A DNA stretch of 64,000 nt from Pseudomonadota bacterium (GTDB taxonomy: Bacteria > Pseudomonadota > Gammaproteobacteria > Burkholderiales > Rhodocyclaceae). Each line of letters starts with the position of its first letter. Position 1 is the stretch's first letter. Under the pieces are notes generated by a model. That model saw nothing but the letters and a program-made list of their open reading frames with translations. It did not search any database and was not told the origin of the DNA. The position numbers were made by a program, and so were the translations under genes. Location of the stretch: assembly GCA_018241665.1 (NCBI GenBank), contig JAFEDK010000002.1, positions 182,144 through 246,143 of the forward strand, read 5' to 3'. Positions 40,925 through 60,504 of the stretch are shown piece by piece.

Positions 40925-42604
<1,680 letters not shown>

Positions 42605-42779: not shown

Positions 42780-42785
42780 TACAGA

Positions 42786-42794
42786 ATCTCGAGA
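42786..42794 (+). promoter_or_regulatory. ATCTCGAGA operator copy 1 (ferredoxin gene)
   Basis: ATCTCGAGA followed by AAAA, just downstream of the candidate -10. A weak second arm (GTCGATT at 42809-42815) lies about where the inverted arm is in copies 3 and 4. See the copies at 47333, 52265 and 58473. Confidence 0.55.
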
Positions 42795-42863
42795 AAAATG
42801 AAGCCGGGTCGATTCGCCAGCAAGAGCGAGCAATCCGGATCGACGATACGCCAGGAGGAGACC

Positions 42864-43241
42864 ATGGCCCAGAAGTACCTGATCCATATCGGAAACAGCG
42901 GTGAGGACTACACCTGCGATGCCGAACTGAACCTGTTGCGCGGCATGGAAGTGCTGGGGCGGCGGGGCATTCCCGTCGGCTGCCGCGGCGGCGGCTGTGG
43001 CGTATGCAAGGTGGCGATCCACTCCGGCAGCTACGAAGCCCGCAAGATGAGCCGTGACTGCGTGAGCGCGGAGGAGGAGGCCAGCGGCGTGGTGCTGGCC
43101 TGCCGGGTTTTCCCCCGCGGGGAAATGTCCCTGACCGTGGTTGGCAAGATGGTCAAGGCGCTGGAGCGGGGGATGGAGAAGCAGACGGGGGCGCCCGTGG
43201 ACGCCCCCGCTGTGCAGTTGCCGGCCAGGCCGGCAAACTAG
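42864..43241 (+). CDS. dmpQ: [2Fe-2S] ferredoxin of phenol/xylene type (DmpQ/XylT-like)
   Basis: 125 residues; ligands Cys40, Cys45, Cys48 and Cys80 in GCRGGGCGVCK and LACRVF give a chloroplast-type [2Fe-2S] centre. The KMSRDCVSAEEE segment is typical of XylT/DmpQ, which reduce and reactivate oxidised catechol 2,3-dioxygenase. ATG 42864 has AGGAGGAG upstream. In most dmp clusters this gene directly precedes dmpB; here it sits beside dmpR, 9.5 kb from dmpB. The C-terminal 30 residues (EKQTGAPVDAPAVQL) form an unusual extension. Confidence 0.85.
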   Translation: MAQKYLIHIGNSGEDYTCDAELNLLRGMEVLGRRGIPVGCRGGGCGVCKVAIHSGSYEARKMSRDCVSAEEEASGVVLACRVFPRGEMSLTVVGKMVKALERGMEKQTGAPVDAPAVQLPARPAN

Positions 43242-43251
43242 AGCACGGAAC

Positions 43252-44247
43252 TCAGAACGGCTGCGGCCGCGGCGTGTTGTCCACGGACGGCGGCAGGATG
43301 GGCAGCTTGAACGAGGGCTGCTGGCCGGTGAGGGTCTTCAGGAAGGCGACGATCTTCGCATTTTCGTCGGCGCTGAACTTGCGGCCCAACTGGAGCCGGC
43401 CCATGGTGTCCACCGCTTCGCCGAGGGTTGCCGCACCGCCGTCGTGGAAGTACGGATAGGTGAGCTCCACGTTGCGCAGCGTGGGCACCTTGAACAGGAA
43501 GCGGTCGGCCTCCTTGCCGGTCACCGCGATGCGCCCTTCGGCCGGGCTGTTTGCCTTGTAGGCTTCCACTACCCCCATCTTCTGGAAGGAATTGCCACCG
43601 ACGGCAGGGCCGTTGTGGCAGGCCACGCAGCCGCTGTCCTTGAACAGCTTGTAGCCGGCCAGCTCTTCCGCATTGAGCGCCTTTTTGTTGCCCTTCAGCC
43701 ACTGGTCGAAGCGGGAGTCGGGCGTGACCAGCGTCTCTTCGAAAGCGGCGATCGCGCCGGTGATGCGGTCCACGTTGATCTCGTCCGAACCGAAAGCCTT
43801 GCGGAAGGCCGTTACGTAGCCGGGAATGGTCTTCAGGGTGTTCACCGCCAGTTCGTGGCTGAAGGCCATCTCGCCCGGGTTGGCGATCGGACCACCGGCC
43901 TGGGCCTTCAGGTCGGCGGCGCGGCCGTCCCAGAACTGGGCCAGGTTGTAGCGGGCATTGAGCACCGTCGGGGAGTTGATCGGCCCTTTCTGCCAGCCGT
44001 GGCCGATGGAGCTCTTCAGGTTGTCGCTGCCGCCCATCGACAGGTTGTGGCAGGAGTTGCAAGAGATGGAGCCTGACTTGGACAGGCGCGGGTCGAAGAA
44101 CAGGGCCTTACCCAACTCGACGGCGGCCGGGTTGGTCACCTTCGGCGGCACGATGGGCTGGATCGGCTCTGCGGCCGGCGCGGCATGGGCGGGGCCGAAG
44201 GCGCCCAAGGCTAGGGCGACAAGTGCGGCGGTACGGCGGATGGTCAT
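43252..44247 (-). CDS. Di-heme cytochrome c peroxidase (CcpA/MauG family)
   Basis: 331 residues with a Sec signal peptide (cleaved after AHA, about residue 22). Two heme c sites are C63-x2-C66-H67 and C207-x2-C210-H211. The spacing and segments such as NSPTVLNARYNLAQFWDGRA and LRNVELTYPYFHDG are those of bacterial cytochrome c peroxidases, which detoxify hydrogen peroxide in the periplasm. It is convergent with the ferredoxin gene, 10 bp away, and divergent from the TonB receptor. A link to phenol oxidation (peroxide from uncoupled oxygenase) is inference. Confidence 0.92.
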   Translation of the reverse strand: MTIRRTAALVALALGAFGPAHAAPAAEPIQPIVPPKVTNPAAVELGKALFFDPRLSKSGSISCNSCHNLSMGGSDNLKSSIGHGWQKGPINSPTVLNARYNLAQFWDGRAADLKAQAGGPIANPGEMAFSHELAVNTLKTIPGYVTAFRKAFGSDEINVDRITGAIAAFEETLVTPDSRFDQWLKGNKKALNAEELAGYKLFKDSGCVACHNGPAVGGNSFQKMGVVEAYKANSPAEGRIAVTGKEADRFLFKVPTLRNVELTYPYFHDGGAATLGEAVDTMGRLQLGRKFSADENAKIVAFLKTLTGQQPSFKLPILPPSVDNTPRPQPF

Positions 44248-44660
44248 CAGGGACTCCTTGCAAGTGGGGAAAGTGGATGGTCGCTGTCTGCAGGACTGTG
44301 GTGCCCCGGGCGACTCGGACCGGATGTTCCGTGAAAAGGTTTAAGAAATCCTTAAGGAATATGCGTTTAGGGATTTTGTATGTCAAATGCCTATTTTGGG
44401 TCTCGCGTCAGGTGTGATCCGGGAGCGGTGGGGTGAGCGGAAACGGTGCTCGGCTGATGACGTTGTGTTGCGGTGCAAGCACCCGCTGAAAAAGACGCCG
44501 GCATTCCCGCCAGCCTTGGCTGGCGCGGAGCACGGTCATTACGCTGAAAGATCATCCGCTTGGCATTGGTCGCCGGCTCGCCTGGCCGGATGTGACCGGT
44601 CCGATTTCATTGGCATGATTGCTGCCACGGCATGCGCTTTCCAATCAGGAGGTGATGCCG
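44248..44660. other. 413-bp divergent region between peroxidase and TonB receptor
   Basis: No gene is seen. It contains TTAAG-N5-CTTAA at 44341-44355 (94 bp upstream of the peroxidase start, a possible operator), a GC-rich palindrome CGCCAGCCTTGGCTGGCG at 44508-44525, and the receptor's AGGAGG at 44647-44652. No Fur-like box was found by eye. Confidence 0.5.
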
Positions 44661-47216
44661 ATGAAACCGTCTTTCAATCATGCTCAGCCCGGGCACCAGC
44701 TGCAGACCGGGCGGTCCGCTCCACGCCTGTCCATGCTGGCGCTTGCCGTCGCCGCGGCCTTGCTGGGCAGTGCGCCCTTGCAGGCCGCCGAAGGGGGCGA
44801 TGGGAAATCCGCCGCAGAAACAACCGGCAGCGCGCTGGATACCGTCATCGTCACCGGGGTGCGTGGCGGCCGGCGGACGGTGGTCGAGAGCCCGGCGCCG
44901 ATCGATATCATCAGTGCGGACCAACTGGCGCGCAGCAGTGGCCGGGCCGAGCTGGGAGAGGCGCTGACCAAGCTGCTGCCATCCTTCAATTTCGGCTACC
45001 ACGTGGCCGGCGTGAATTCCATCGTGCGGCCGGTTTCCAACCGTGGCCTCGGGCCGGCCTATACGCTGGTGCTGGTCAATGGCAAGCGCCGCCACAACAG
45101 TGCGCTGCTGACCAACGGCGGCGGCGACAGCAGCGGCGTCAATGCGGTGGACCTGGACCTGATCCCCCTCAGTGCCGTGCATCACATCGAGGTGCTGAAG
45201 GACAGCGCGGCAGCGCAATACGGCACGGATGCGGTGGCCGGCGTGGTGAACATCGTGCTCAAGCGCAATTTTGGTGGCCACGTGGGCCTGTCCAGCGGCC
45301 GGTTGTATGAGGGCGACGGGGATCTGACGACCACCAAGGGAGAGGCGGATTTCGGGACCGAGCTGGGTACCGACGGCTTCATCCATTTCAGCGTCGACGC
45401 GCGCAAGCGCGGCCAGTCGTGGAACAACTTCCCGGCGACCAATACCGTCAATTGGTCGCCGGCTTCCAACCCGAAGAACGCCACCTGGAACCGGGACGGC
45501 GCGCACAACGGGGATCCGCAGATCGAGGCCTGGAACCTGTCCTACAACGCCGAACTGCCGGTCAATAGCGAGGTGTCCCTGTACTCCTTCGGTACTGGTG
45601 GGCAGCGCGATACGGTGGCCGGCAACAACTTCCGCCGCGCCAATGGCCTGGCGACGATCACCCAGCTGTTTCCCGACGGTTACTTCGCCCTCAACAATTC
45701 CCACGAGATCGATTTCCAGTTCGTCTTCGGTGCGAAGGGGCGGAGCAACGACTGGGAGTGGGATCTGAGCACCTCCTATGGCAAGAGCCGCAATCGGCAG
45801 TTCAGTGACCTGACCATCAACCCGTCCCTCGGCCCGGCGTCGCCGACGCGCTTCGACAACCTGGCCACCTACCAGTTTGCCCAGTGGGTGAACAACCTGG
45901 ACGTGACCCGCGCCTTCGACATCGGCCTGAAGAAGCCACTGCAGGTGTCTTTTGGCGGGGAGTTCCGTCAGGACGGCTTCGACACCTTCGCCGGCGACCC
46001 CCTCGGCTATACCAACGGCGGCTACGTCTTCAAGGCCGGCGACCAGGAGGGCGACCCCAACGTGGGCAAGCCGGCCAACGTCGGTGCCCAGGCTGCTGTG
46101 GTGCTGGCGCCGATCGACGAGGCCCGTCTCAAGCGTAACGTGGCGGCGGCCTACCTGGACCTGGGCTTCCACCCGCGGGAGAACTGGTTCGTCGATACCG
46201 CTGTGCGGGCCGAACACTATGGCGACAGCTCCGGCAACACGGTGAGCGGCAAGCTCAATTCCCGCTATGACCTCACGCCCCAGTTCGCAGTGCGCGGCAC
46301 CGTGGGCTCGGGCTTCCGCGCCCCGTCCCTGTCCCAGATCGGCTATGCGCAGACGGACAACCGCACCAATACCGATATCAACGGCAACCTGGTGCCCAGC
46401 CTGTCCAAGCTGCTGCGCAATACCTCGCCGCTGGCGCGGGAACTAGGGGCAGAAGACCTGAAGCCGGAGAAGTCCACCAACTTCGGCCTGGGCGTGACCT
46501 TCCAACCCAACCGCCAGACCAGCATCACGCTCGATGCCTACCGGGTGGACATCCGCGACCGCATCATCCGCACCGGCTACCTGTACGGCCCGGCCTTCGT
46601 GCCGCTGCTGCAGAAGTACGGCTACACCGGGAGCGAATGGGTACAGTACTTCGCCAACGCGGTGGATACCAAGACCACCGGCGTGGATCTGGTCGCGGAG
46701 ACGACGCGGGACTACGCCCGATTGGGGACGGTGCGCTGGAGCGCCGCCTTCAACTGGAACAAGACCGAGGTGGAGAGGATCAGGAACACGCCGTCGGCGA
46801 TCGCCAAGCTGGGTGTCAACCCCGGCGGCAATACGATCTGGTTCCCACGCTCGTCGGTGGGCGGGCTCACCGACGGTTATCCGCAGACCAAGTTGATTCT
46901 TGGCGCGCGCTGGTTCATCGACCGCTTCGACATCAACCTCGCCGCTACCCGCTATGACAAGCTGACCTGGTTCCGTTCCGAGAGATCGGCCCAGGACGTA
47001 AGCTTCGGCGCCAAGTGGATCACCGACCTGGATGTGAACTACGCGTTGACGAAGTCGTGGAAGCTCACCGTGGGCGCAGCCAACCTGTTCAACGTGCGTC
47101 CGGACAAGAACGGGCCCGGCGAGCCGACCACCGGGACGTCGAGCGCCGTATACGGCACCCAACCCTACGCCACCGGCGGCGGCTTCTACTACGGCAAGAT
47201 CGCCTACGATTTTTGA
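44661..47216 (+). CDS. TonB-dependent outer-membrane receptor
   Basis: 851 residues. A long N-terminal signal (about 1-47, hydrophobic LSMLALAVAAALLGSAPLQA) is followed by a TonB-box-like DTVIVTG, a plug domain (about 75-195, with RGLGPAYTLVLVNGKRRH and IEVLKDSAAAQYGTDAVAGVVNIVLK) and a beta-barrel ending in an aromatic residue (IAYDF). ATG 44661 has an ideal AGGAGG. It resembles iron-complex receptors, but the ligand is not identifiable. Its position inside the phenol cluster, just upstream of dmpK, makes an aromatic or metal ligand needed for phenol oxidation possible. Confidence 0.9.
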   Translation: MKPSFNHAQPGHQLQTGRSAPRLSMLALAVAAALLGSAPLQAAEGGDGKSAAETTGSALDTVIVTGVRGGRRTVVESPAPIDIISADQLARSSGRAELGEALTKLLPSFNFGYHVAGVNSIVRPVSNRGLGPAYTLVLVNGKRRHNSALLTNGGGDSSGVNAVDLDLIPLSAVHHIEVLKDSAAAQYGTDAVAGVVNIVLKRNFGGHVGLSSGRLYEGDGDLTTTKGEADFGTELGTDGFIHFSVDARKRGQSWNNFPATNTVNWSPASNPKNATWNRDGAHNGDPQIEAWNLSYNAELPVNSEVSLYSFGTGGQRDTVAGNNFRRANGLATITQLFPDGYFALNNSHEIDFQFVFGAKGRSNDWEWDLSTSYGKSRNRQFSDLTINPSLGPASPTRFDNLATYQFAQWVNNLDVTRAFDIGLKKPLQVSFGGEFRQDGFDTFAGDPLGYTNGGYVFKAGDQEGDPNVGKPANVGAQAAVVLAPIDEARLKRNVAAAYLDLGFHPRENWFVDTAVRAEHYGDSSGNTVSGKLNSRYDLTPQFAVRGTVGSGFRAPSLSQIGYAQTDNRTNTDINGNLVPSLSKLLRNTSPLARELGAEDLKPEKSTNFGLGVTFQPNRQTSITLDAYRVDIRDRIIRTGYLYGPAFVPLLQKYGYTGSEWVQYFANAVDTKTTGVDLVAETTRDYARLGTVRWSAAFNWNKTEVERIRNTPSAIAKLGVNPGGNTIWFPRSSVGGLTDGYPQTKLILGARWFIDRFDINLAATRYDKLTWFRSERSAQDVSFGAKWITDLDVNYALTKSWKLTVGAANLFNVRPDKNGPGEPTTGTSSAVYGTQPYATGGGFYYGKIAYDF

Positions 47217-47291
47217 GCCGGAAGAGGGCGGATCCGGCGCGGCCGGGTTCGCCTGACTGTTTCACCAGATCATCAAGCCGCACTGCAGCAT

Positions 47292-47311
47292 TTGATCAAT
47301 TGATTCATCAA
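47292..47311 (+). promoter_or_regulatory. DmpR/XylR-type upstream activating sequence
   Basis: TTGATCAATTGATTCATCAA fits the XylR/DmpR consensus TTGANCAATTGATCAA in its first 13 bases and keeps a second CATCAA half. It is centred about 108 bp upstream of the predicted start point, the usual distance for these enhancer sites. Only one clear copy is seen. Confidence 0.75.
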
Positions 47312-47312
47312 T

Positions 47313-47354
47313 AAAATCCGCTTTTTCTCGTAATCTCGAGAAAAAGCGGATTTT
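47313..47354. other. Perfect 18-bp inverted repeat containing operator copy 2
   Basis: 47313-47330 pairs perfectly with 47337-47354 (loop TAATCT). T-rich sequence GTCTTTTT follows, so it may terminate the TonB receptor transcript. Its centre carries ATCTCGAGA (47333-47341), the same motif found at three other promoters of the cluster. It lies between the activator site and the -24/-12 promoter. Confidence 0.7.
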
Positions 47355-47383
47355 GTCTTTTTGGATCAGTGAGTTGTCAGATC

Positions 47384-47399
47384 TGGTACGGGGCTTGAA
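47384..47399 (+). promoter_or_regulatory. Sigma54 (-24/-12) promoter of the phenol hydroxylase operon
   Basis: TGGTACGGGGCTTGAA: GG and GA are separated by exactly 10 bases, with TGG-ACG and TTG preserved; the -12 element has GA in place of the usual GC. Predicted start near 47410. An IHF-like match (GATCAGTGAGTTG, 47364-47376, one deviation) lies just upstream. Confidence 0.65.
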
Positions 47400-47435
47400 T
47401 AGGAGAAGCCTGTTGCAGACCAGACCGAGGACACG

Positions 47436-47702
47436 ATGATCGATCCGACCACCCCGCCGCCCGTGGATGTGAACCGCAAGTACGTACGCCTGGTGGAGCG
47501 GCGGCCCGACGGCCTGGTGGAGTTCGAGTTTTCCATTTCCGACCCCGCGCTCTTCGTCGAGATGCTGCTGCCCGAGGCGGCCTACGAGGAGTTCTGCCAG
47601 ACCAACCGGGTGATCCTCCTCGAGGGTTCCCGGCCGGAGGCGGAGGAGGACGGCGACTTCAACTGGAGTCTCCACGAGGCCACGCACCAACGCTTCAGAT
47701 GA
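47436..47702 (+). CDS. dmpK: Phenol hydroxylase assembly subunit P0
   Basis: 88-residue DmpK/PhhK-type protein, needed in the DmpKLMNOP system for assembly of active oxygenase with iron. It contains RKYVRLVERRPDGLVEFEFSISDP and the conserved ERRP..FVEFEF pattern of this family. First gene of the hydroxylase operon; ATG 47436 follows the -24/-12 promoter. Length is normal. Confidence 0.92.
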   Translation: MIDPTTPPPVDVNRKYVRLVERRPDGLVEFEFSISDPALFVEMLLPEAAYEEFCQTNRVILLEGSRPEAEEDGDFNWSLHEATHQRFR

Positions 47703-47754
47703 ACCGGCCGGGCCGAGCGCCCGGAATTTGAATAGAAGAAGGAGGAGAGACACC

Positions 47755-48753
47755 ATGCAGATGGATCTGCGCACCGTCACCATCAAGCCGCAGCGGCAGA
47801 CTTTCGACCACATCGCCCGCCGCATCGGCGCGGACAAGGCGGCGACCCGCTACCAGGAAGGCACGCTGGAAGTTCAGGCGACCCACAACTTCCACTACCG
47901 CCCGACCTGGGATCCGGACCATGAGATCTTCGATGCGTCCCGCAGCGCGATCAAGATGGCCGACTGGTACGCCTTCAAGGACCCGCGCCAGTTCTACTAC
48001 GGCGCCTACACGCTGGCCCGCGCCAAGCAGCAGGAAACCGCCGAGTCCAACTTCGACTTTGTCGAGGGCCGCGGCCTGGCCGACACTCTGCCGGCCGAGC
48101 TGACCGACACCGTGCTCAAGCTGCTGCTGCCGCTGCGCCATGCAGCCTGGGGCGGCAACATGAACGCTGCCTTCATCACCGCCTACGGCTACGGCACCGC
48201 GCTGACCCAGCCGTGCATCTTCCATTCGATGGACATGCTGGGCATCGCCCAGTACATCACCCGCGTCGGCCTGCTGCTCGGCGACGACGTGGAGGTGCTC
48301 GACACTGCCAAGCAGAGCTGGATGGAAGACAGCGCCTGGCAGGGCCTGCGTCGCTACGTGGAAGACTGTTTCGTGCTGAAGGACCCGCTGGAAGTCTTCG
48401 TCGCCCAGATGGTGGCGCTGGACGGCCTGCTGTACCCGCTGGTGTACGAAACCATCATCGACAACGTGCTCTCGTCCAAGGGCGGCACGCCGATCGCGAT
48501 GCTCACCCAGTTCATGACCGACTGGTTCGCCGAAACCAGGAAGTGGGTCGATGCCACGGTGAAGACCGCTGCCGCCGAATCCGCCGAAAACAAGACCCAG
48601 ATGGAAACCTGGATCACCCACTGGCGCGACCGCGCCGCCGCCGCGCTGATGCCGATCGCCCAGATCGCCCTCGGTGCCGAAGCCGACGCCATCACCAGCG
48701 AGGTGGTGGACCAGTTCAACGCGCGCATGGCCAAGGCCGGCGTCAGCCTCTGA
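47755..48753 (+). CDS. dmpL: Phenol hydroxylase P1, oxygenase beta subunit
   Basis: 332-residue non-catalytic subunit of the (DmpLNO)2 oxygenase. It resembles the diiron alpha subunit in fold but lacks its full ligand set. Begins QMDLRTVTIKPQRQTFDHIARRIG; contains RPTWDPDHEIFDASR and LLLPLRHAAWGGNMNAAF, family-typical. ATG 47755 is preceded by GGAGGAG; a longer in-frame start at 47728 overlaps nothing but lacks an RBS. Confidence 0.95.
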   Translation: MQMDLRTVTIKPQRQTFDHIARRIGADKAATRYQEGTLEVQATHNFHYRPTWDPDHEIFDASRSAIKMADWYAFKDPRQFYYGAYTLARAKQQETAESNFDFVEGRGLADTLPAELTDTVLKLLLPLRHAAWGGNMNAAFITAYGYGTALTQPCIFHSMDMLGIAQYITRVGLLLGDDVEVLDTAKQSWMEDSAWQGLRRYVEDCFVLKDPLEVFVAQMVALDGLLYPLVYETIIDNVLSSKGGTPIAMLTQFMTDWFAETRKWVDATVKTAAAESAENKTQMETWITHWRDRAAAALMPIAQIALGAEADAITSEVVDQFNARMAKAGVSL

Positions 48754-48764
48754 TAGGAAGCCCC

Positions 48765-49034
48765 ATGTCCAAGGTATTCATCGCGCTGCAAACCAACGAC
48801 GACACCCGCCAGATCATCCAGGCCATCCTCGCCGACAACCCCCACGCCATCTGCAACGAGCAGCCGGCGATGGTGAAGATCGACGCCGAAGGCTCGCTGG
48901 TCGTGCGCCGCTCGACCATCGAAGAACTGATCGGCCGCGACTTCGACCTGCAGGAACTGCACATCAACCTGATTTCCCTCACGGGCAACGTCGACGAGAC
49001 CGACGACGAGCTGACCCTGAGCTGGAACGCCTGA
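48765..49034 (+). CDS. dmpM: Phenol hydroxylase P2, effector/regulatory subunit
   Basis: 89-residue cofactorless effector that binds the oxygenase and tunes its activity. VFIALQTNDDTRQIIQAIL and the central ACPUTE-like AMVKIDAEGSLVV stretch are typical; it ends DELTLSWNA. ATG 48765 lies 11 bp after the dmpL stop. Confidence 0.94.
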   Translation: MSKVFIALQTNDDTRQIIQAILADNPHAICNEQPAMVKIDAEGSLVVRRSTIEELIGRDFDLQELHINLISLTGNVDETDDELTLSWNA

Positions 49035-49056
49035 ACCCCTCGAGGAGACACGCAAG

Positions 49057-50613
49057 ATGGACATGAAAGTCGGCAAGAAAAAGCTGGGCCTCAAGGAGAA
49101 GTACCAGCACATGACCCGCGGCCTGGGCTGGGAAACCACCTACCAGTCGATGGACGACGTGTTCCCCTTCGTCAAGTACGAGGGCATCAAGATCCATGAC
49201 TGGGACAAGTGGGAAGACCCGTTCCGTCTGACCATGGACGCCTACTGGAAGTATCAGGCCGAGAAGGAGCGCAAGCTGTACGCGATCATCGACGCCTATG
49301 CCCAGAACAACGGCCACCTCAACGTCACCGATGCGCGCTACCTCAACGCCATCAAGCTGTTCCTGAACGGCATCAGCCCGCTGGAGTACATGGCCCACCG
49401 CGGCTTCGCGATGACCGGCCGCCAGTTCCCCGGCGTCGGCGCACGGGTCGCCTGCCTGATGCAGTCCCTGGACGAGATCCGCCACGCCCAGACGCAGATC
49501 CACTCCCTGTCCAACTACAACAAGTACTACAACGGCTTCCACGACTACCGGCACATGCTGGAGCGCGTGTGGTACCTGTCGGTGCCGCGCTCGTTCTTCG
49601 ACGACGCCGTCACCGCCGGCCCCTTCGAGTTCATGGTGGCGATCGGCTTCAGCTTCGAGTACGTGCTGACCAACCTGCTGTTTGTGCCCTTCGTGTCCGG
49701 TGCCGCCTACAACGGCGACATGGGCACCATGACCTTCGGCTTCTCGGCCCAGTCCGACGAAGCCCGCCACATGACGCTGGGCCTGGAAGTCATCAAGTTC
49801 GTGCTGGAGCAGGACCCGGACAACCTGCCCATCGTGCAGCAGTGGATCGACAAGTGGACCTGGCGTGGCTACCGCGTGCTGACCCTGGTCGGCATGATGA
49901 TGGACTACATGCTGCCCAAGCGCATCATGAGCTGGAAGGAGGCCTGGGAGGTCTACTTCGAGGAGAACGGCGGTGCGCTGTTCAAGGACCTGGCCCGCTA
50001 CGGCATCCGTCCGCCGAAGTGGCTCGACCAGATCGAGCAGGACAAGGACCACATCTCCCATCAGGCCTGGGCGACCTTCTACAACTACGCCGCGGCGTGC
50101 AACTTCCACACCTGGATCCCCACCGACGACGAGCTGGACTGGCTGTCGCAGAAGTACCCGAACAGCTTCGACAAGTACTACCGGCCGCGCCTGGAGCACT
50201 GGCGCGAGGAGGCCAAGAAGGGCAACCGCTTCTACAACAAGACGCTGCCCATGCTGTGCCAGACCTGCCAGATCCCGATGATCTTCACCGAGCCGGGCGA
50301 CCCGACGCAGATCTGCTACCGCGAGGTCGATTACAAGGACAACAAGTACCACTTCTGCTCCGACGGCTGCAAAGAGATCTTCGAGCACGAGCCGGAGAAG
50401 TACATCCAGGCCTGGCTGCCGGTGCACCAGATCTACCAGGGCAACTGCTTCGAGGAAGGCGTCGATCCGACCGCCGAGGGCTTCGACCCGCTGTCGGCCG
50501 TGCTCGACTACTACCACCTGGCCCAGGGTCGCGACAACCTGGACTTCGAAGGATCGGAAGACCAGAAGAACTTCGAGGCCTGGCGCGGCATGGCGACCAA
50601 GAACGCTGCCTGA
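49057..50613 (+). CDS. dmpN: Phenol hydroxylase P3, oxygenase alpha subunit (diiron)
   Basis: 518-residue catalytic subunit of the bacterial multicomponent monooxygenase family. Diiron ligands are Glu110, Glu140 and His143 (DEIRH), Glu202, Glu236 and His239 (DEARH), in the spacing of toluene and phenol monooxygenases. C-terminal region has zinc-type cysteines (MLCQTCQIPM and FCSDGCKEIF). It hydroxylates phenol to catechol with O2. Start ATG 49057 (MDMKVGKKKLGLKEKY). Confidence 0.97.
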   Translation: MDMKVGKKKLGLKEKYQHMTRGLGWETTYQSMDDVFPFVKYEGIKIHDWDKWEDPFRLTMDAYWKYQAEKERKLYAIIDAYAQNNGHLNVTDARYLNAIKLFLNGISPLEYMAHRGFAMTGRQFPGVGARVACLMQSLDEIRHAQTQIHSLSNYNKYYNGFHDYRHMLERVWYLSVPRSFFDDAVTAGPFEFMVAIGFSFEYVLTNLLFVPFVSGAAYNGDMGTMTFGFSAQSDEARHMTLGLEVIKFVLEQDPDNLPIVQQWIDKWTWRGYRVLTLVGMMMDYMLPKRIMSWKEAWEVYFEENGGALFKDLARYGIRPPKWLDQIEQDKDHISHQAWATFYNYAAACNFHTWIPTDDELDWLSQKYPNSFDKYYRPRLEHWREEAKKGNRFYNKTLPMLCQTCQIPMIFTEPGDPTQICYREVDYKDNKYHFCSDGCKEIFEHEPEKYIQAWLPVHQIYQGNCFEEGVDPTAEGFDPLSAVLDYYHLAQGRDNLDFEGSEDQKNFEAWRGMATKNAA

Positions 50614-50687
50614 CAGACAGGCGTGAGTCCGGCCCGGTGCAGGGCGCCGGCCGGATTCCGCATCGGAAAAATACAAGGAGACAAACC

Positions 50688-51047
50688 ATGGGCGTAGCCG
50701 CCATCAAGGAATATTCCTTCGAGTCCGCCGACCGGCTCGAGAACTTTCACGGCAACCAACTGCTGTACATCGGCTGGGACCAGCACCTGCTGTTCTGTGC
50801 GCCGTTCTGCCTGCCGTTCCCGCCGAGCATGCGTTTCGGCGACATCATCGACAAGGTTCTGCCGGGCGTCTTCGGCTACCACCCCGACTTCGCCAAGGTC
50901 GACTGGAGCAAGGTCGAGTGGCTGAAGTCCAGCCAGCCGTGGCAACCGGACTTCAACAAGACGCTGGCCGAACTGGGGCTCAAGCACAAGGACGTGCTGC
51001 GCTTCCGCACCCCGGGCCTTACCGGCATCAAGGGTTCTGCGAGCTGA
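50688..51047 (+). CDS. dmpO: Phenol hydroxylase P4, oxygenase gamma subunit
   Basis: 119-residue small oxygenase subunit. Starts MGVAAIKEYSF and holds FHGNQLLYIGWDQHLLFCAPFCLPFPP, characteristic of DmpO. ATG 50688 has AAGGAG nine bases upstream. It is followed after 3 bp by dmpP. Confidence 0.95.
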   Translation: MGVAAIKEYSFESADRLENFHGNQLLYIGWDQHLLFCAPFCLPFPPSMRFGDIIDKVLPGVFGYHPDFAKVDWSKVEWLKSSQPWQPDFNKTLAELGLKHKDVLRFRTPGLTGIKGSAS

Positions 51048-51050
51048 ATC

Positions 51051-52106
51051 ATGTCCTACGAGCTGACCATCGAACCCCTCGGCCAGACCATCGAGGTCGA
51101 GGAGGGGCAGACCATTCTCGATGCCTCCCTGCGTGCCGGCATCTGGCTGCCCCACGCGTGCTGCCACGGCCTGTGCGCCACCTGCAAGGTGCAGGTGGTG
51201 GACGGGGAAGTGGATCACGGTGAAGCGTCGAGCTTCGCGCTGATGGATTTCGAGCGCACCGAAGGCAAGACCCTGGCCTGCTGTGCGCGCCTCGAAAGCG
51301 ACGTGACCATCGAAGCGGAAATCGAGGAGGAGCCGGATGCCGAATCCATCCCGGTGAAGGACTTCCCCGGCACCGTGAAGCGCATCGAGCAGCTCACGCC
51401 GACCATCAAGGGTATCTTCGTCGAGCTCGACGAGCCCATCCACTTCCAGGCCGGCCAGTACATCAACCTGGACATTCCCGGCCTCGGCATCAGCCGCGCC
51501 TTCTCCCTGGCCAACGTGCCGTCGACGGGGCGGGAGATCGAGCTCAACGTGCGCATCGTGCCCGGCGGCACCGGTACCGGCTATCTCCACGAGAAGCTGG
51601 CGGAAGGGGATGGTGTCAAGCTCTCAGGCCCCTACGGTCGCTTCTTCGTGCGCAAGTCGGCCAATGTGCCGCTGCTCTTCATGGCCGGCGGCTCGGGGTT
51701 GTCCAGCCCGCGCAGCATGATCCTCGACCTGCTGGCCGAGGGCAGCACGCTGCCGATCACCCTGGTGTACGGCCAGCGCAGCCGCGCAGAGCTCTATTAC
51801 CACGACGAGTTCCTGGCGCTGGCGGAGAAGTATCCCAACTTCACCTACGTGCCGGCGCTGTCGGACGAGCCGGCAGATTCGTCGTGGCAGGGCTTCCGGG
51901 GTTTCGTGCACGAGGCGGCCAAGGCCCACTTCGACAACGACTTCCGCGGGCGCAAGGCCTATCTGTGCGGCCCGCCGATGATGATCGACGCGTGCATCTC
52001 GACGCTGATGCAGGGCCGCCTGTTCGAGAACGACATCTATACGGAGAAATTCTTCTCTGCGGCGGATGCCCAGCAGGTGCGCAGCCCGCTGTTCAAGCGG
52101 GTGTAG
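51051..52106 (+). CDS. dmpP: Phenol hydroxylase P5, NADH:ferredoxin-type reductase
   Basis: 351-residue reductase that delivers NADH electrons to the oxygenase. The N-terminal plant-type [2Fe-2S] domain has CCHGLCATC and ACCAR cysteines; the FAD domain has RAFSLANVPS; the NAD domain has FMAGGSGLSSPRSMI and LCGPPMMIDACI. It is the last hydroxylase gene and is followed by a REPIN-like doublet. Confidence 0.96.
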   Translation: MSYELTIEPLGQTIEVEEGQTILDASLRAGIWLPHACCHGLCATCKVQVVDGEVDHGEASSFALMDFERTEGKTLACCARLESDVTIEAEIEEEPDAESIPVKDFPGTVKRIEQLTPTIKGIFVELDEPIHFQAGQYINLDIPGLGISRAFSLANVPSTGREIELNVRIVPGGTGTGYLHEKLAEGDGVKLSGPYGRFFVRKSANVPLLFMAGGSGLSSPRSMILDLLAEGSTLPITLVYGQRSRAELYYHDEFLALAEKYPNFTYVPALSDEPADSSWQGFRGFVHEAAKAHFDNDFRGRKAYLCGPPMMIDACISTLMQGRLFENDIYTEKFFSAADAQQVRSPLFKRV

Positions 52107-52146
52107 GCGGAACGGTACCCCCCGGAAAAGGCAAGCTCATATCCCT

Positions 52147-52213
52147 GTGGGGGCGAATTCATTCGCCCGACAAGCGCGGATCAAGCACCACGGGCGAATG
52201 AATTCGCCCCCAC
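52147..52213. repeat. REPIN-like doublet 7
   Basis: Left arm 52147-52168 and right arm 52192-52213 are exact inverted copies of the 22-bp unit, 67 bp overall, between dmpP and dmpB. Could end the hydroxylase transcript. Confidence 0.9.
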
Positions 52214-52264
52214 AGCGAGGAGTGCCGAGGCTCCGTTTGCGATTTAAATCGATATAAAAATAAA

Positions 52265-52293
52265 ATCTCGAGAATAAATTGACTTATCGAGAT
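52265..52293 (+). promoter_or_regulatory. 29-bp inverted operator, copy 3 (dmpB promoter)
   Basis: Arms ATCTCGA (52265-52271) and TCGAGAT (52287-52293) enclose a TTGAC. The left arm extends to ATCTCGAGAA as at the other three sites. It overlaps the -35 box of the dmpB promoter, so a bound protein would block RNA polymerase. Confidence 0.65.
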
Positions 52294-52306
52294 GAGTGTT
52301 TAAGAT
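52279..52306 (+). promoter_or_regulatory. Sigma70-type promoter of dmpB
   Basis: TTGACT (52279-52284), 16-bp spacer, TAAGAT (52301-52306). It would start transcription about 80 bp before dmpB. Confidence 0.6.
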
Positions 52307-52396
52307 AACCACAGTGCCCGCCGGGTCGGGAAACCGCGCCGCAACGCGGTTTCCCGGACCATGCCGGCATCCACAAGGACAAGAGGAGATAACGAA

Positions 52397-53326
52397 ATGG
52401 CAATGACCGGAGTTCTGCGTCCCGGCCACATGCAGCTGCGTGTGCTGGATCTGGAAGAGGGCGTCAATCACTACAAGAATGTGCTGGGCCTCATCGAGAC
52501 CGGCCGCGACGCCCAGGGCCGCGTGTACTTCAAGGCCTGGGACGAGCGTGACCACCACAGCCTGATCCTGCGCGAGGCGGAATCCGCCGGCATGGACTTC
52601 TTCGCCTTCAAGGTGGCCGACAAGGCCACGCTGGAAAAGCTCAATGGCGATCTGCGGGCCTACGGCGTCCAGACCGAGCGCATCCCCGCCGGCGAGCTGC
52701 TGGAAACCGGCGAGCGCGTGCGCTTCGAGATTCCGTCCGGCCACCAGATCGAGCTCTACGCCGAGAAGACCGACGTGGGCAACGGCATGAGCTACGTCAA
52801 TCCGGACCCGTGGACGCCCGATGCCGAGCGTGGCATCGCGCCGGTGCGCCTCGACCACTGTCTGCTCTACGGGCCGGACATCGAGAAGGTGCAGAAGCTG
52901 TTCAAGGACGTGCTGGGCTTCTACCTGGTCGAGCGCGTGCTGATGGAAGACGGCGAAACCGACCTGGCGATCTGGCTGTCCTGCTCCCACAAGGCCCACG
53001 ACATCGCCTTCGTGCGCCACCCGGAGCCGGGCAAGCTGCACCACGTGTCCTTCCTGCTGGATACCTGGGAGAAGGTCCTGCGCGCCGCCGACATCATGTC
53101 GATGAACAAGGTGTCCATCGACATTGGCCCGACCCGCCACGGCGTGACCCGCGGTACCACGATCTACGCCTTCGACCCGTCAGGCAACCGCTTCGAGACC
53201 TTCTGCGGCGGCTACCAGCCCTATCCGGACTACGCGCCGATCACCTGGACCTGGGAAGAGGTCGGGACGGGCGTGTTCTACCATGACCGCAAGCTCAACG
53301 AGCGCTTCCTGACGGTCGTTTCCTGA
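52397..53326 (+). CDS. dmpB: Catechol 2,3-dioxygenase
   Basis: 309-residue Fe(II) extradiol dioxygenase that opens catechol to 2-hydroxymuconic semialdehyde. Iron ligands are His154 (RLDHC), His215/216 region (KLHHVSF) and Glu267 (RFETFCGG); length equals XylE/DmpB. ATG 52397 has AGAGGAG upstream. It is a separate transcription unit with its own promoter and operator rather than the end of the dmpKLMNOP message, and is followed by a hairpin. Confidence 0.97.
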   Translation: MAMTGVLRPGHMQLRVLDLEEGVNHYKNVLGLIETGRDAQGRVYFKAWDERDHHSLILREAESAGMDFFAFKVADKATLEKLNGDLRAYGVQTERIPAGELLETGERVRFEIPSGHQIELYAEKTDVGNGMSYVNPDPWTPDAERGIAPVRLDHCLLYGPDIEKVQKLFKDVLGFYLVERVLMEDGETDLAIWLSCSHKAHDIAFVRHPEPGKLHHVSFLLDTWEKVLRAADIMSMNKVSIDIGPTRHGVTRGTTIYAFDPSGNRFETFCGGYQPYPDYAPITWTWEEVGTGVFYHDRKLNERFLTVVS

Positions 53327-53335
53327 GCACCCCAA

Positions 53336-53356
53336 GGGCTGGGCCAAGCCCAGCCC
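53336..53356. terminator. Hairpin between convergent dmpB and PAS-GGDEF-EAL genes
   Basis: GGGCTGGGC (53336-53344) pairs with GCCCAGCCC (53348-53356), loop CAA. No T-tract on either strand, but it fills the 32-bp gap between the two stop codons. Confidence 0.5.
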
Positions 53357-53358
53357 GC

Positions 53359-56300
53359 TCAGTGATGCCGGCCGGCCGCGGTACCCGCGGTCAGGCCGGC
53401 GGTCAGGATCGCCGCCTCGACGGGGCGGCTCATCAGATAGCCCTGCACTTCGTGGCAGCCGATGCCCGACAGGAAATCCAGCTGCTCGCGGGTTTCCACC
53501 CCTTCGGCAATCACCCTCAGCTTCAGTGACTGGCCCATGCGCACGATGGCCTCGGCGATGGCGCGGTCTTCCTCGTCGTCCGGGATGTCCTTGACGAAGG
53601 ACTGGTCCACCTTCAGCTTGCTGACCTGGAAACGCTTCAGATAAGCCAGGCTTGAGTAGCCGGTGCCGAAGTCGTCGATGGCCACCGACATGCCAAGGCT
53701 GCGCACGTAGGCGATCAGCTCGATGAAGCGGGCGGCGTCGCTCATCAGCGCCGACTCGGTGAGTTCCAGCTCGATCAGCTGCGGGTCGGCGCCGGTGTCC
53801 CTCAGCACGGCAGCCAGCGTGGCCGAGAAGTCGTCCCGGTGCAGCTGCACCGCCGACACGTTGACGGCGATCTTCAAGGCCTTGCCAGCGTCAGCCCAGG
53901 TACGGGCCTGGCGGCAGGATTCGTACAGCGCCCATTCGCCGATCGGCAGGATCAAGCCGGTGTCTTCGGCCAGCGGGATGAAGCGTCCCGGGCTGATCTC
54001 GCCCAGCTGCGGCGAGCGCCAGCGCATCAATGCTTCGGCGCCGATCATGCGGCCGTCGCCGATGGTGAACTGGGGTTGATAGACCAGCCGCAACTCGCCT
54101 GCGCCGAGGGCCCGGCGCAGCTGGGTGGTCAGGGACAGGCGCTCGGCCGAGTCCTGGTTCATCCGTTCGTCGAAGAAGCTGAAGGTTGCGCGACCGCGGG
54201 CCTTGGCGTGGTACATGGCCATATCGGCCTTCTTCAGCAGGGTGTCGAAATCCTTGCCGTCACCCGGTGACACGGCGACGCCCAGCGTGCCGGTGGCGGT
54301 CAGCGCGTGGCCGCCGAGCTCGAAGGGCTTTTCCAGGGCGCGGCAGATCTTCTCCGCCACCGCGGCGTAGAAGCGCGTGGACTCGTCCCCTTCGACCAGG
54401 ATGATGAACTCGTCGCCGCCCAGGCGGCTGATCGTGTCGCTGTGGCGCAGGCAGCCGGCCAGGCGGTTGGTCACGGCCATCAGCAGGTCGTCGCCGATGG
54501 CGTGGCCGAGGGTGTCGTTGATGTGCTTGAACTGGTCCAGGTCGAGGAAGAACATCCCCAGCGTGCCGTTGTTGCGGACGCTGCGCTGGAAGGACTGCTC
54601 GAACCGGTCACGCAACAGGATGCGGTTGGGTAGGCCGGTCAGCGCGTCGTGGTGGGCCATGTATTGGATCTGCGCTTCGGCAGCCTTGCGGGCGCTGATG
54701 TCGCTGAAGGCCGCCACGTAGTGGGCGACGCTGGCGTCGGGATTGCGCACGACGCGGATGGTCAGCCACTTGGGGTAGACGCGGCCGCTCTTGTGGCGGT
54801 CCACGATCTCGCCCTCCCAGCGGTCGTCCCGGGCCAGGGCTTCCCACATGGACTTGTAGAAGTCGTCCTCGTGCTGGCCGGACTTCAGGATGGACGGGCT
54901 GCGGCCGAGCACCTCCGCCGCCGCGTAGCCGGTGATGGTGCTGAAGGCCGAGTTGACGCTCTCGATACGGTTGTTTGCATCGGTCACCATCAGCGCCTCG
55001 TTGCTGTGGTTGAAGACCAGCTGGGCCAGTTCCAGCTGGGCGTGCTGCTCGCGCTGGCGGGTGATGTCGCTGAAGACCCAGATGGCGCCTTCGCTGCCGC
55101 TGCGTGCATCCACCGGCCTGCCCGACAGGCGGATCCATACGTGGCTGCCGTCCTTGCGCAGCATGCGGACGTCGCCCTCGCTGTAGCCGCGGGTTGCCAG
55201 CTCCTGGTAGATATGGCCGCCGACCTCCAGGTAGTCCGTACGGCTCGAATAGAGGATCTCGGTGCTCTGGCCGATCAGGTCCGAGGGCGAGTGGTAGCCG
55301 AAGATCGCCGCCATGTGCTGGTTGGCGTCGAGGATCAGGCGGTCGCGGCAGAAAATGATGCCCACATGGGCGTTGTCGAAGATCGCCCGCTGCTGGACCA
55401 GCAGGCGGCCGATGCGGGCCTCGCCTTCCTTCAGCGAAGTGATGTCGCCAACCGTCAGCACGAAGCCTTCGTCGGGCATCGGGAAGCGCCCGAGCTCCAG
55501 TACCGGGCCGTCGCCGCTGCGCTGCTCGAAGCGCGTGGCCCTGGATTGGGGGGCCAGGCCCGGCGGGCACAGGCGGCTGATCGCCGCGCTGTGGCGGCGC
55601 AGGGTGGCGAGGGGGCTGCCGGTTTCGGCGAGGGGCGCCGGCAGGGCCAGCAGCGTGAAGAAGCGCTGGTTGCAGGCCACCAGGCGTTCGTCCCGGTCGA
55701 AGACGGCGATGCCCTGGTCGATGCTGTCCAGGGTGGATTGCAGCAGCTGGGACTTGCGGGCCAGGGCTTCCTGGCGCAGCAGGGCCTCCTCGGCCTTCAG
55801 GTCGGTCACGTCGGAATAGATGCCGACCAGGCCGCCGTCGTCCATGCGCCGTTCGCGGATCTGCAGGATCTGCCCCGACGGAAGCTTCAGTTCGCTGCGC
55901 TCCCGCCTGTTGCGGCAGGCCTGGAAGCGGTGGGGCAGCGTGGGGTCGGTGGCGCAGGCGGCCAGCAGCTCGCCGAAGGGGCGGCCGCCGAGGTGGCCGT
56001 CGAGGCCCCACAGCCGCCGGAAGGCTTCGTTGCAGAGCAGGATGTGGTCGTCGGCATCGAACAGCGCGAAGCCGTCGGACATGTTGTCCATCGCTGCCTC
56101 GAGCTGGTGGCGGGCGGCGCTGGCCTCGGCGGACATCTCGCGCAGGGCCTTCAGGGTGGCGACCAGCTCCTCGGTGCGCTGGCGGATCTGCTCTTCCAGC
56201 ATGAAGGTGGTCTGCAGCAGCCCGTAGCCCCGTTCTGGCGCCGCCGGGTTGCTCTCCACCTGGTAGACCAGGGCGTCGATCATGCGGTCCCGGCGCTCGA

Positions 56301-56361
56301 TCTCGGCGCGCAGGCCGGCGGGGTCGTCCGGGGCGCAGCGCAGGTCGTCCGGCGGGCTCAT
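53359..56361 (-). CDS. Multi-PAS GGDEF-EAL cyclic-di-GMP protein
   Basis: 1000 residues, no membrane helix. A coiled-coil start (about 45-85) is followed by four PAS domains (from roughly 85, 205, 335 and 455; for example AMDNMSDGFALFDADD and VFNHSNEALMVTDANN), a GGDEF domain with RLGGDEFIIL and an EAL domain with GAEALMRW and DDFGTGYSSL. Both enzymatic motifs are intact. Its ATG overlaps the stop codon of the FIST gene, so the two are translated together and probably work as a sensor pair. Confidence 0.92.
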   Translation of the reverse strand: MSPPDDLRCAPDDPAGLRAEIERRDRMIDALVYQVESNPAAPERGYGLLQTTFMLEEQIRQRTEELVATLKALREMSAEASAARHQLEAAMDNMSDGFALFDADDHILLCNEAFRRLWGLDGHLGGRPFGELLAACATDPTLPHRFQACRNRRERSELKLPSGQILQIRERRMDDGGLVGIYSDVTDLKAEEALLRQEALARKSQLLQSTLDSIDQGIAVFDRDERLVACNQRFFTLLALPAPLAETGSPLATLRRHSAAISRLCPPGLAPQSRATRFEQRSGDGPVLELGRFPMPDEGFVLTVGDITSLKEGEARIGRLLVQQRAIFDNAHVGIIFCRDRLILDANQHMAAIFGYHSPSDLIGQSTEILYSSRTDYLEVGGHIYQELATRGYSEGDVRMLRKDGSHVWIRLSGRPVDARSGSEGAIWVFSDITRQREQHAQLELAQLVFNHSNEALMVTDANNRIESVNSAFSTITGYAAAEVLGRSPSILKSGQHEDDFYKSMWEALARDDRWEGEIVDRHKSGRVYPKWLTIRVVRNPDASVAHYVAAFSDISARKAAEAQIQYMAHHDALTGLPNRILLRDRFEQSFQRSVRNNGTLGMFFLDLDQFKHINDTLGHAIGDDLLMAVTNRLAGCLRHSDTISRLGGDEFIILVEGDESTRFYAAVAEKICRALEKPFELGGHALTATGTLGVAVSPGDGKDFDTLLKKADMAMYHAKARGRATFSFFDERMNQDSAERLSLTTQLRRALGAGELRLVYQPQFTIGDGRMIGAEALMRWRSPQLGEISPGRFIPLAEDTGLILPIGEWALYESCRQARTWADAGKALKIAVNVSAVQLHRDDFSATLAAVLRDTGADPQLIELELTESALMSDAARFIELIAYVRSLGMSVAIDDFGTGYSSLAYLKRFQVSKLKVDQSFVKDIPDDEEDRAIAEAIVRMGQSLKLRVIAEGVETREQLDFLSGIGCHEVQGYLMSRPVEAAILTAGLTAGTAAGRHH

Positions 56362-57527
56362 CTGCGTGCCTCCTTGCCGAACGCGATGCCGGTGAAGGTC
56401 TGGTTCAGGTGCAGGCCGAGGAACTGCTCGCCAAAGGTGTTGAAGCCGACGACGCGACCATCGGCCAGGCGACGGCCGACCACGTCTGCAATGCCGGTCT
56501 CGGTGGCTGCCAGGCGGCGCAGGATGCAGTCGCAGCCGAGGATCAGGTCGGCCTCGCCGACGGCCGTGGAGGCGGCGCCGAGGGCCTTGTCCAGATTCGT
56601 CAGCAGGTTTTCGCCGCGGGCGATCTTGAAGACGATGCCGCGGTCGATGGCACAGAAGAAGTCGAGGCTGCCGTCCGGGTTGGCGCGCTGGATCGAACGC
56701 ACGAAGTCGGTGCCGCCAATGCGCACGAGGACGGGGTTGGCGGCAAAGATGGCGGGGGTCAGCTCGGCAGCCGTGAGGCCGAGGGCATGAGCGTATTCAT
56801 CGGCCGCCGGGCAGCCGTTCAGTTCGGTGACGCGGCGCTCGGTGGGGATCGCTCCGGTGACGATCAGGCGTGCGCTGGTGGGGGTGAAATGCTGGGTGTG
56901 GAAGACCTCCAGCGGGCGGTGGCTGACGCCCACCAGCAGGACGGCCGCGTTCTTCACCAGCCGCCCCTTGTAGATCACCCGGGTATCCACGAAGTGCAGG
57001 TCGTCACCAGCCGAGCCGCCGGACAGGGGAATTCCGCCGAGGCCGTCGTGGAAGGCACGGGCGACGCTTTCCTCGCGGCCGCACAACCCGTCCACCAGCA
57101 TGAAGGCGAAGCAGGACAGGCTGTCCAGACGAGTGTGGCGGGCCTGCAGGGCGTTGCGCAGGTCGCGGGCGAAGGCCGTCATGCAGTGCAGGTCGAGGCG
57201 ATCCAGGCCGTCGAGCAGCCCGATCTCGAAGTCGATCACGTCGTCGCCGAGGGAGGCGCCGGCCAGGCTGGCCTGCTGGTAGCCCCGTGGGCCGATTTCG
57301 CCGGCGGTCGTGCAGCCGATCTGCGGCGTGCGTCCGAAGGCCATGGCGAGACCGGCCTCGAGTTGTTCCGGTGCAAAACTGCTGGAGGCGAATACCAGGG
57401 ACAGGCGGTTGGGCGCAGGGGCGAGCTGGCTGGCGAGCTGGCGGGCCGCTTCGGTGGCGTCCGCGTGCTGGCTTTCGCCGACGCGGATGCCCTCCGCGGG
57501 GTCTCCGTTGGCGGGGTGGGGCTTCAT
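56358..57527 (-). CDS. FIST-domain sensor protein
   Basis: 389 residues with a FIST N domain (about 40-225: LSLVFASSSF, GCTTAGEIGPRGY, GGIPLSGGSAGDD) and a FIST C domain (about 235-375: CPAADEYAHALG, DFFCAIDRGIVFKIARGENL, FNTFGEQF). FIST proteins are thought to sense small molecules, often amino acids, and occur with signalling enzymes. ATG 57527 has GAGGAG upstream. It overlaps the GGDEF-EAL gene by four bases. Confidence 0.88.
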   Translation of the reverse strand: MKPHPANGDPAEGIRVGESQHADATEAARQLASQLAPAPNRLSLVFASSSFAPEQLEAGLAMAFGRTPQIGCTTAGEIGPRGYQQASLAGASLGDDVIDFEIGLLDGLDRLDLHCMTAFARDLRNALQARHTRLDSLSCFAFMLVDGLCGREESVARAFHDGLGGIPLSGGSAGDDLHFVDTRVIYKGRLVKNAAVLLVGVSHRPLEVFHTQHFTPTSARLIVTGAIPTERRVTELNGCPAADEYAHALGLTAAELTPAIFAANPVLVRIGGTDFVRSIQRANPDGSLDFFCAIDRGIVFKIARGENLLTNLDKALGAASTAVGEADLILGCDCILRRLAATETGIADVVGRRLADGRVVGFNTFGEQFLGLHLNQTFTGIAFGKEARR

Positions 57528-57667
57528 TGTAATTGTGTCTCCTCGGCGTGGCGCGTCGGGCGCGGCCACTGCGGCCGGCGTGGGCACGCCGGCAGGAGAT
57601 TAACGGAGCGGCGGGCGTATGTCTTTAGTTATATCGCACCGAAGCCGGCAGTCCGGCTGGCGTGGAT

Positions 57668-58378
57668 CTAGCTAATGAAGTCCGCTGGCAGCTGGCGGAC
57701 TGCATCCAGCGTGCGCAGGATGTGATCGGAGAGGATACGCGTGGCCTCGGCGCTGTTGCGGGCCAGCGCCGCATCGACGATGGCCTGGTGCTCGGCGTGG
57801 ACGTCCCGCGGGATCGGCTGGCGGAACAGGGACAGGCGGCGGTAGCGCTCCGACTGGTGGTACAGGATGTTCTGGAAGTGGCGGATCCAGCGTGACGGGC
57901 AGGCCGAGATCAGCACCTCGTGGAAGGCCCGGTTGCGCAGCTCCCATTCCTCCCGGGTGCCCTTGGCGCCATCGACGAGCTTGTCTTCGGCGCGGGACAG
58001 CATGTGGAAGGCCGCCACCACGTTGGCCTCCCAGGTGTCGTCGCCGAGCTCGATGGACTGCTGCAGCGCCGACGTTTCAAGCAGTACGCGGGTGCGGGTG
58101 ATGTCGGCGAAATCGTCGAGGGAGATCGGCGCGACACGGAAGCCGCGCTGCCCCTGGGCAACCACCAGCGCGTCGGTGACGAGCAGCTGCAGCGCCTCGC
58201 GCAGGGTGCCGGCACCCACTTCATATTGATCCTTCAGGTGCTCGACCCGCAGCTTTTCGCCGGGGCGGTGCACGCCTTCGATGATGTCCCGGCGCAGCTG
58301 GCGGTAGGCCGCCTCGGCCAGGGTCTTGGGTTCGTCGGCCTCGCTGGCGAGGTCGGTGCTGGTGACTAGGTCGTTCAT
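57668..58378 (-). CDS. FCD-type GntR repressor of the phenol cluster (AphS-like)
   Basis: 236 residues: winged HTH (about 18-85, LAEAAYRQLRRDIIEGVHRPGEKLRVEHLKDQYEVGAGTLREALQ, quoted in part as RPGEKLRVEHL and GTLREAL) followed by an FCD ligand domain with metal-binding His residues (NRAFHEVLI, HQAIVDAAL). Divergent from the lower-pathway operon. In Comamonas testosteroni the GntR proteins AphS/PhcS repress phenol genes, so this is a likely counterpart. The repeated ATCTCGAGA sites are the best candidate operators. ATG 58378 follows a long non-conserved open frame that was discarded. Confidence 0.82.
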   Translation of the reverse strand: MNDLVTSTDLASEADEPKTLAEAAYRQLRRDIIEGVHRPGEKLRVEHLKDQYEVGAGTLREALQLLVTDALVVAQGQRGFRVAPISLDDFADITRTRVLLETSALQQSIELGDDTWEANVVAAFHMLSRAEDKLVDGAKGTREEWELRNRAFHEVLISACPSRWIRHFQNILYHQSERYRRLSLFRQPIPRDVHAEHQAIVDAALARNSAEATRILSDHILRTLDAVRQLPADFIS

Positions 58379-58472
58379 GGTGTGGATTTCCGGTGTTTCC
58401 GGCGGGTCCCGTGGGTACCTGCCTGTTGTTATGAATTCTAGCCGAAGCGGCTTGGTACGATCATAATCAAAA

Positions 58473-58501
58473 ATCTCGAGAAAAGTTGTTGACGTCGAGA
58501 T
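58473..58501 (+). promoter_or_regulatory. 29-bp inverted operator, copy 4 (lower-pathway operon)
   Basis: Arms ATCTCGA (58473-58479) and TCGAGAT (58495-58501), the same 29-bp span as the dmpB site, again around a TTGAC. It sits between the GntR gene and the operon it faces and overlaps the -35 box. Confidence 0.68.
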
Positions 58502-58994: not shown

Positions 58995-59031
58995 ACAAGA
59001 CAAGCTCTTCACCAAGAAGGACGAACAGCAG

Positions 59032-60492: not shown

Positions 60493-60504
60493 CAGCTCCA
60501 AACA

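Follow-up and report, generated by a model that had tools for sequence, protein, structure and literature searches.

The four copies of ATCTCGAGA in the phenol cluster of the window (the whole stretch of 64,000 nucleotides analysed here) are, to judge from sequence, very probably operators of a GntR repressor of the AphS/PhcS type encoded at 57668-58378. The repressor would keep the phenol-degradation genes of this Zoogloea-like bacterium switched off. The motif and the type of repressor have already been described in related bacteria, and the regulon has already been predicted in a related genus. The first-pass annotation had taken the operator code to be unfamiliar; however, PMC6449761 gives it as the AphS/BphS consensus, a 14-nt palindrome AAATmTCGAkATTT credited to work of 1999-2001, and ATCTCGAGA is the core of this consensus. 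The further proposal that one repressor serves all four units is plausible because the protein is AphS-like, the boxes match the consensus, and the box and the gene are conserved together. The boxes, their geometry and conservation, their co-occurrence with the gene, and the protein family are observed; binding, repression, the inducer, and any influence on the two divergent genes (aphS and aphR-like) are inferred.

Putative operators in the window and in the genome

An exact search of the window found ATCTCGAGA at 42786, 47333, 52265, and 58473, all on the plus strand, which bears out the earlier statement that one copy lies upstream of each named unit and none elsewhere. Shuffled windows contained 0.33 exact copies on average, and none of 100 shuffles reached four. 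When one mismatch was allowed, the 9-mer had 16 matches in the window versus 11.5 expected, which is not unusual. The agreement with the published consensus is 10 to 12 of 14 letters at the four promoters (Table 1), and one other TCGA-centred match of 10 of 14 is present in the window, at 15849.

Table 1. Genes, boxes, and predicted promoter elements in the window; agreement is with the published 14-bp consensus
Feature	Position	Strand	Remarks
DmpR/AphR-like sigma-54 activator gene	40925..42604	-	Pfam XylR_N, V4R, sigma-54 domain
Box 1	42784..42797	+	10 of 14; between the DmpR-like gene and ferredoxin
Unit 1, 2Fe-2S ferredoxin (AphQ-like)	42864..43241	+	Fer2; starts with ATG; name AphQ by analogy
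DmpR/XylR-type upstream activator site	47292..47307	+	2 mismatches; 0.07 expected
Box 2	47331..47344	+	10 of 14; phenol hydroxylase, between the DmpR-type site and the sigma-54 promoter
Sigma-54 -24/-12 promoter TGGTACGGGGCTTGAA	47384..47399	+	aligned in 19 loci
Unit 2, multicomponent phenol hydroxylase	47436..52106	+	Pfam Phenol_hyd_sub, Phenol_Hydrox, MmoB_DmpM, Phenol_monoox
Possible weak third core TCGA	52249..52252	+	scored by hand, 9 of 14; lies 19 bp ahead of 3a; also in L119-L122
Box 3a	52263..52276	+	12 of 14; catechol 2,3-dioxygenase promoter
Box 3b	52282..52295	+	10 of 14; 19 bp downstream of 3a; -35 TTGACT at 52279 between the cores
Unit 3, catechol 2,3-dioxygenase	52397..53326	+	TIGR03211 above cut-off
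aphS-like gene, FCD-GntR repressor (236 aa)	57668..58378	-	Pfam GntR + FCD; relatives in phenol clusters; VGAGTLREAL
Box 4a	58471..58484	+	11 of 14; lower-pathway/aphS divergent region; first palindrome in 34 of 36 loci
Element 4b, right half-site	58490..58503	+	8 of 14; 19 bp from 4a; -35 TTGACG at 58489, -10 TATCGT 17 bases on
Unit 4, lower pathway	58551..63995	+	continues towards the window end

The annotation had also described a 29-bp inverted pair around a TTGAC -35 box. The exact form ATCTCGA-N15-TCGAGAT does occur twice in the window, at 52265-52293 and 58473-58501 (shuffles, 0.00), yet it is really a strong palindrome plus a weaker neighbour. A single 29-bp palindrome was rejected on the comparison of 34 related loci, in which the first palindrome is nearly invariant and the second arm drifts, keeping its 19-bp step from the first palindrome in 32. 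The predicted operator unit is the 14-bp palindrome AAATmTCGAkATTT, which at two promoters has a weaker neighbour 19 bp away.

The whole genome (5.43 Mb) holds 20 exact matches to ATCTCGAGA, of which the 16 outside the four boxes fall at 14 places, nine of them inside ORFs as called by a crude ORF caller whose "no ORF" calls are weak. That the motif might be equally common outside the cluster was checked genome-wide and is not the case: the density of the other matches predicts 0.046 in the 15.7 kb in which four are found (P about 2e-7, a post hoc value). The genome has three copies of the 29-mer: the two of the window and one at C51:53073, which is inside an ORF. These further 9-mer matches and the share of them in ORFs are what could speak for a chance origin of the four copies, or for a dispersed repeat. 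Such an origin is contradicted by the excess over shuffles, by the clustering, and by the conservation at orthologous promoters; we rejected chance on the shuffles, the genome density, and the count of the 29-bp pair, and give this explanation practically no credence.

The sequence WAATMTCGAKAWWW without mismatch is found at five places in the genome, three in the phenol cluster and two on contig C15; matches with one mismatch were not counted as regulon members. The C15 boxes agree with the consensus in 13 and 14 of 14 letters and lie at positions 4947 and 11579 of locus L257 (G000:C15:110000-129900). One is upstream of a ring-hydroxylating dioxygenase operon, by eye between a DmpR-type site and a sigma-54-like promoter, and the other is between the genes for a catechol dioxygenase and an aldehyde dehydrogenase. 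The divergent regulator of this cluster is DmpR-like and 49% identical to the DmpR-like protein of the window. The fetched stretches of a second phenol hydroxylase cluster (C42) and of a catechol dioxygenase region (C18) contained no box of at least 11 of 14.

The putative repressor

The gene at 57668-58378 looks like a gene for an AphS/PhcS-type repressor. Its product has both the GntR helix-turn-helix and the FCD domain (Pfam) and is 98% identical to a GntR protein of Zoogloea sp. LCSB751; among solved structures it has only distant GntR relatives (best E 1.6e-09). The gene lies in the same 18-kb cluster as the phenol hydroxylase and the AphR/DmpR-type gene. Its neighbours are phenol and meta-cleavage genes, not the bph genes that would be expected of a BphS.

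We fetched 80 GntR loci: 36 of the Rhodocyclales type (L039-L073 and L108; 71-98% identical; records of Zoogloea, Azoarcus, Thauera, and similar), 15 in which the gene directly follows an aphR-type gene (L074-L088; 51-54% identical; Rhodoferax, Polaromonas, Comamonas, Comamonadaceae, unnamed Burkholderiales, and beta-proteobacteria), and 29 others. The stretch VGAGTLREAL, which by the fold is the predicted recognition helix, is identical in all 36 Rhodocyclales-type and all 15 aphR-aphS loci, and is present in none of the 18 mappable among the 29 other loci. Two plasmid relatives have VGAGTLREAM and VGAGTLREAL. The window protein thus has the recognition stretch of the aphR-linked AphS proteins, although its gene is not adjacent to aphR, as it is in the 15 loci L074-L088 and in L056 and L057. 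Each of these 15 loci has a box of at least 12 of 14 immediately upstream of the aphR-type gene; where the contig includes the oxygenase operon, the box faces it. None of 11 loci of other GntR proteins (L089-L099) has a box at this threshold.

Box and gene also occur together across the family. Among 150 family genomes, the GntR gene was found in 34 (E<=1e-40) and the exact 14-mer AAATCTCGAGAWWW in 31; 27 genomes have both, 4 the box only, 7 the gene only, and 112 neither (Fisher P 3e-19, kinship ignored). The reversed 14-mer pattern was found in none of the 150. The four genomes that carry the 14-mer without the gene would fit another owner of the box (such as a protein of the LysR or AraC type, or a GntR protein encoded elsewhere), with AphS having some other target, and in relatives the regulators AphT and BenR are reported to act on such promoters as well (PMC6449761). 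We consider this improbable: the motif is the one published for AphS/BphS, it goes with the gene both in Rhodocyclales and in the aphR-aphS loci, and the genome of the window has one GntR gene of the AphS kind at E<=1e-40.

Conservation of the boxes in related bacteria

The first-pass annotation proposed that the same gaps be compared in related phenol degraders, and in this comparison the relatives have boxes at the corresponding promoters, with a patchy distribution at phenol hydroxylase. Of the 36 Rhodocyclales-type loci, 34 have the first palindrome (at least 10 of 11 letters) ahead of the GntR gene; these 34 also have TTGAC, and 33 loci have a -10-like hexamer that follows the -35 by 17 bases. 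The palindrome and TTGAC are lacking at this position in Azoarcus sp. TTM-91 (L056) and in Azoarcus indigens (L057), whose GntR genes follow aphR. A. indigens still has boxes upstream of all four units: the agreement is 13 of 14 at the HbpS-like gene and also at catechol dioxygenase, 12 at ferredoxin, and 11 at phenol hydroxylase; L056, a shorter contig, has one box, at ferredoxin. In a family sample of 30 loci, 28 of which were read (L019 and L020 were left out), a match of at least 10 of 14 lies within 450 bases in 24 of the 28 upstream regions and is missing from the other four; the total is 33 matches versus 4.4 in shuffles.

For units 1-3, 30 loci each were examined, paralogs included; the labels "closest" and "ortholog" follow identity. 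The ferredoxin box is present in 17 loci, which are the 17 closest. The catechol dioxygenase box is also present in 17, namely 14 of the 15 in L119-L133, a set marked off after the result was seen, plus three doubtful ones; it is missing in L125 and, among the GntR loci, in L048 and L049. L143, which is 79% identical and represents a second copy in its genome, is also without a box. The distribution at phenol hydroxylase is patchy, with boxes in 16 loci (all of the 11 closest, 3 of the next 8, and 2 of the remaining 11), and the box is missing in five of the eight Zoogloea loci at middle distance (L160-L167). In 11 of the 36 GntR loci the contig includes all four genes (the HbpS-like gene and those for catechol dioxygenase, phenol hydroxylase, and ferredoxin). 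At a threshold of at least 11 of 14, five of these have all four boxes (L051, L057, L058, L061, and L064), five have three, and one has two; at this threshold the window itself shows two of four, boxes 1 and 2 reaching only 10.

Layout of the four promoters

The only DmpR-type upstream site in the window is at the phenol hydroxylase promoter (47292..47307), and its form is that of DmpR/XylR-type sites. This form is also in line with the AphR motif of PMC6449761. The sigma-54 scan of the window gave 2 matches versus 2.35 expected, and the promoter at 47384 rests on position and conservation. A two-layer circuit of repressor and DmpR had been proposed for all four units; it would apply to phenol hydroxylase and not to the other three, which are without DmpR or sigma-54 signals. 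The latter promoters look like the sigma-70 type, and the putative AphS is the only regulator recognised at them. The best NCBIfam match of the DmpR/AphR-like activator is MobR, below the cut-off.

At the catechol dioxygenase promoter (TTGACT-16-TAAGAT) and the lower-pathway promoter (TTGACG-17-TATCGT), the -35 lies between two AphS-type elements, so that bound AphS would exclude RNA polymerase. By eye, the 19-bp spacing extends at catechol dioxygenase to a third, weak core (52249). For ferredoxin, a promoter was found by eye (TTGCGT at 42751, TAATAA at 42774, spacing 17) and none was called by the promoter scan; box 1 lies over the expected transcription start in a block conserved in 17 of the 17 closest ferredoxin loci. 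Box 2 falls in the gap that corresponds to one AphS site of Comamonas testosteroni TA441, which is described in PMC3063778 as lying around a putative IHF site, outside the activator sites. AphS bound in this gap might, by analogy, hamper IHF, as was suggested for Comamonas AphS. By analogy with BphS of KKS102, which is released by HOPD (PMC10282184), AphS would be released by a ring-cleavage metabolite, and a ring-cleavage product is probably the inducer.

AphS could also bind the boxes and activate at some of them. The GntR relative BphR1 of KF707 is reported to activate where operator and promoter do not overlap (PMC10282184). However, at three of the promoters the boxes overlap the -35 or the expected start, which is the layout of repression in KKS102, and AphS and PhcS are described as repressors (PMC3063778). 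Activation is therefore unlikely, and we keep to repression.

A wider proposal is that this one repressor sets different thresholds at the four promoters by box geometry, that an ordered release of ring cleavage and the lower pathway keeps catechol and semialdehyde from building up, and that its reach extends to the separate benzoate-type cluster. Three geometries would be involved. Ferredoxin has one box that covers the start; catechol dioxygenase and the lower pathway have tandem sites that surround the -35 in 19-bp steps; and at phenol hydroxylase the box is placed in the gap that separates the activator site from the sigma-54 promoter. We regard this proposal as speculative and somewhat doubtful.

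Other features of the gene cluster

Several further features were observed between the units. Box 2 is surrounded by a perfect 18-bp inverted repeat (47313-47330/47337-47354); it was considered as a functional unit and set aside, being present among 19 aligned loci only in the four closest, L149-L152. A MauG-like di-heme gene (43252-44247) and a TonB-dependent receptor gene (44619-47216) separate ferredoxin from phenol hydroxylase in the window; in several related loci the two are close neighbours. At 52142-52218 there is a REPIN-like inverted pair of 28-nt arms, 96% complementary, whose core GGGCGAATTCATTCGCCC has 309 + 340 exact matches in the genome (reversed control, 0); many of the matches listed form inverted pairs with a distance of 41 bp. 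The region 53359-57587, which separates catechol dioxygenase from the GntR gene, contains a gene for a NosP-like nitric-oxide sensor and a PAS-GGDEF-EAL gene. These two genes are present in eight Zoogloea-type loci (L039-L046) and missing in nine (L047-L055), where the catechol dioxygenase and GntR genes adjoin. Unit 4 encodes an HbpS-like protein, 2-hydroxymuconic semialdehyde dehydrogenase, a hydrolase, a hydratase, an SDR protein, and acetaldehyde dehydrogenase.

Comparison with known systems

The analysis extends the AphS regulon to Zoogloea-type genomes, and promoters with boxes are also found in Azoarcus and Thauera loci for the same four units (ferredoxin, phenol hydroxylase, catechol dioxygenase, and the lower pathway). 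No new class of regulation follows from this. Box geometry varies naturally among the 36 loci, which offer material for tests of its effect on the order of derepression.

The closest known systems are AphS of C. testosteroni TA441 and PhcS of strain R5, with which the 15 aphR-aphS loci stood in for a direct protein comparison. They are like the window in having a GntR protein with a DmpR-type partner on the phenol hydroxylase promoter, a site around the IHF region, and the published box AAATmTCGAkATTT (PMC6449761, PMC3063778). The motif from AphS gel shifts, TATCGTAT, resembles but differs from TCTCGAGA, and AphS is stated to repress aphKLMNOP even when phenol is present (PMC3063778). In TA441 and R5, aphS follows aphR, whereas the aphS-like gene of the window lies by the lower operon; also unlike TA441 and R5, catechol dioxygenase, ferredoxin, and the lower pathway of the window each have their own boxed promoter.

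The window also resembles the AphS regulon predicted for Azoarcus sp. BH72 (azo2437), where most aph genes are placed under AphS and aphKLMN under AphS and AphR; the likeness is drawn from the text of PMC6449761. According to the same source, multiple AphS/BphS sites imply cooperative binding. The gene content of the C15 cluster resembles that of benzoate clusters under AphS and BenR in Dechloromonas and Thauera (PMC6449761), although the regulator here is DmpR-like.

BphS of KKS102 and of P. naphthalenivorans CJ2 is likewise a GntR repressor, and the KKS102 operator overlaps its promoter (PMC10282184), but both belong to the biphenyl pathway. The CJ2 protein, encoded beside bph genes, is 48% identical to the window protein and has a different helix stretch (VSGGTVREAL); beside its gene are two sites, of only 11 of 14, that lie 19 bp apart, like the 19-bp step in the window.
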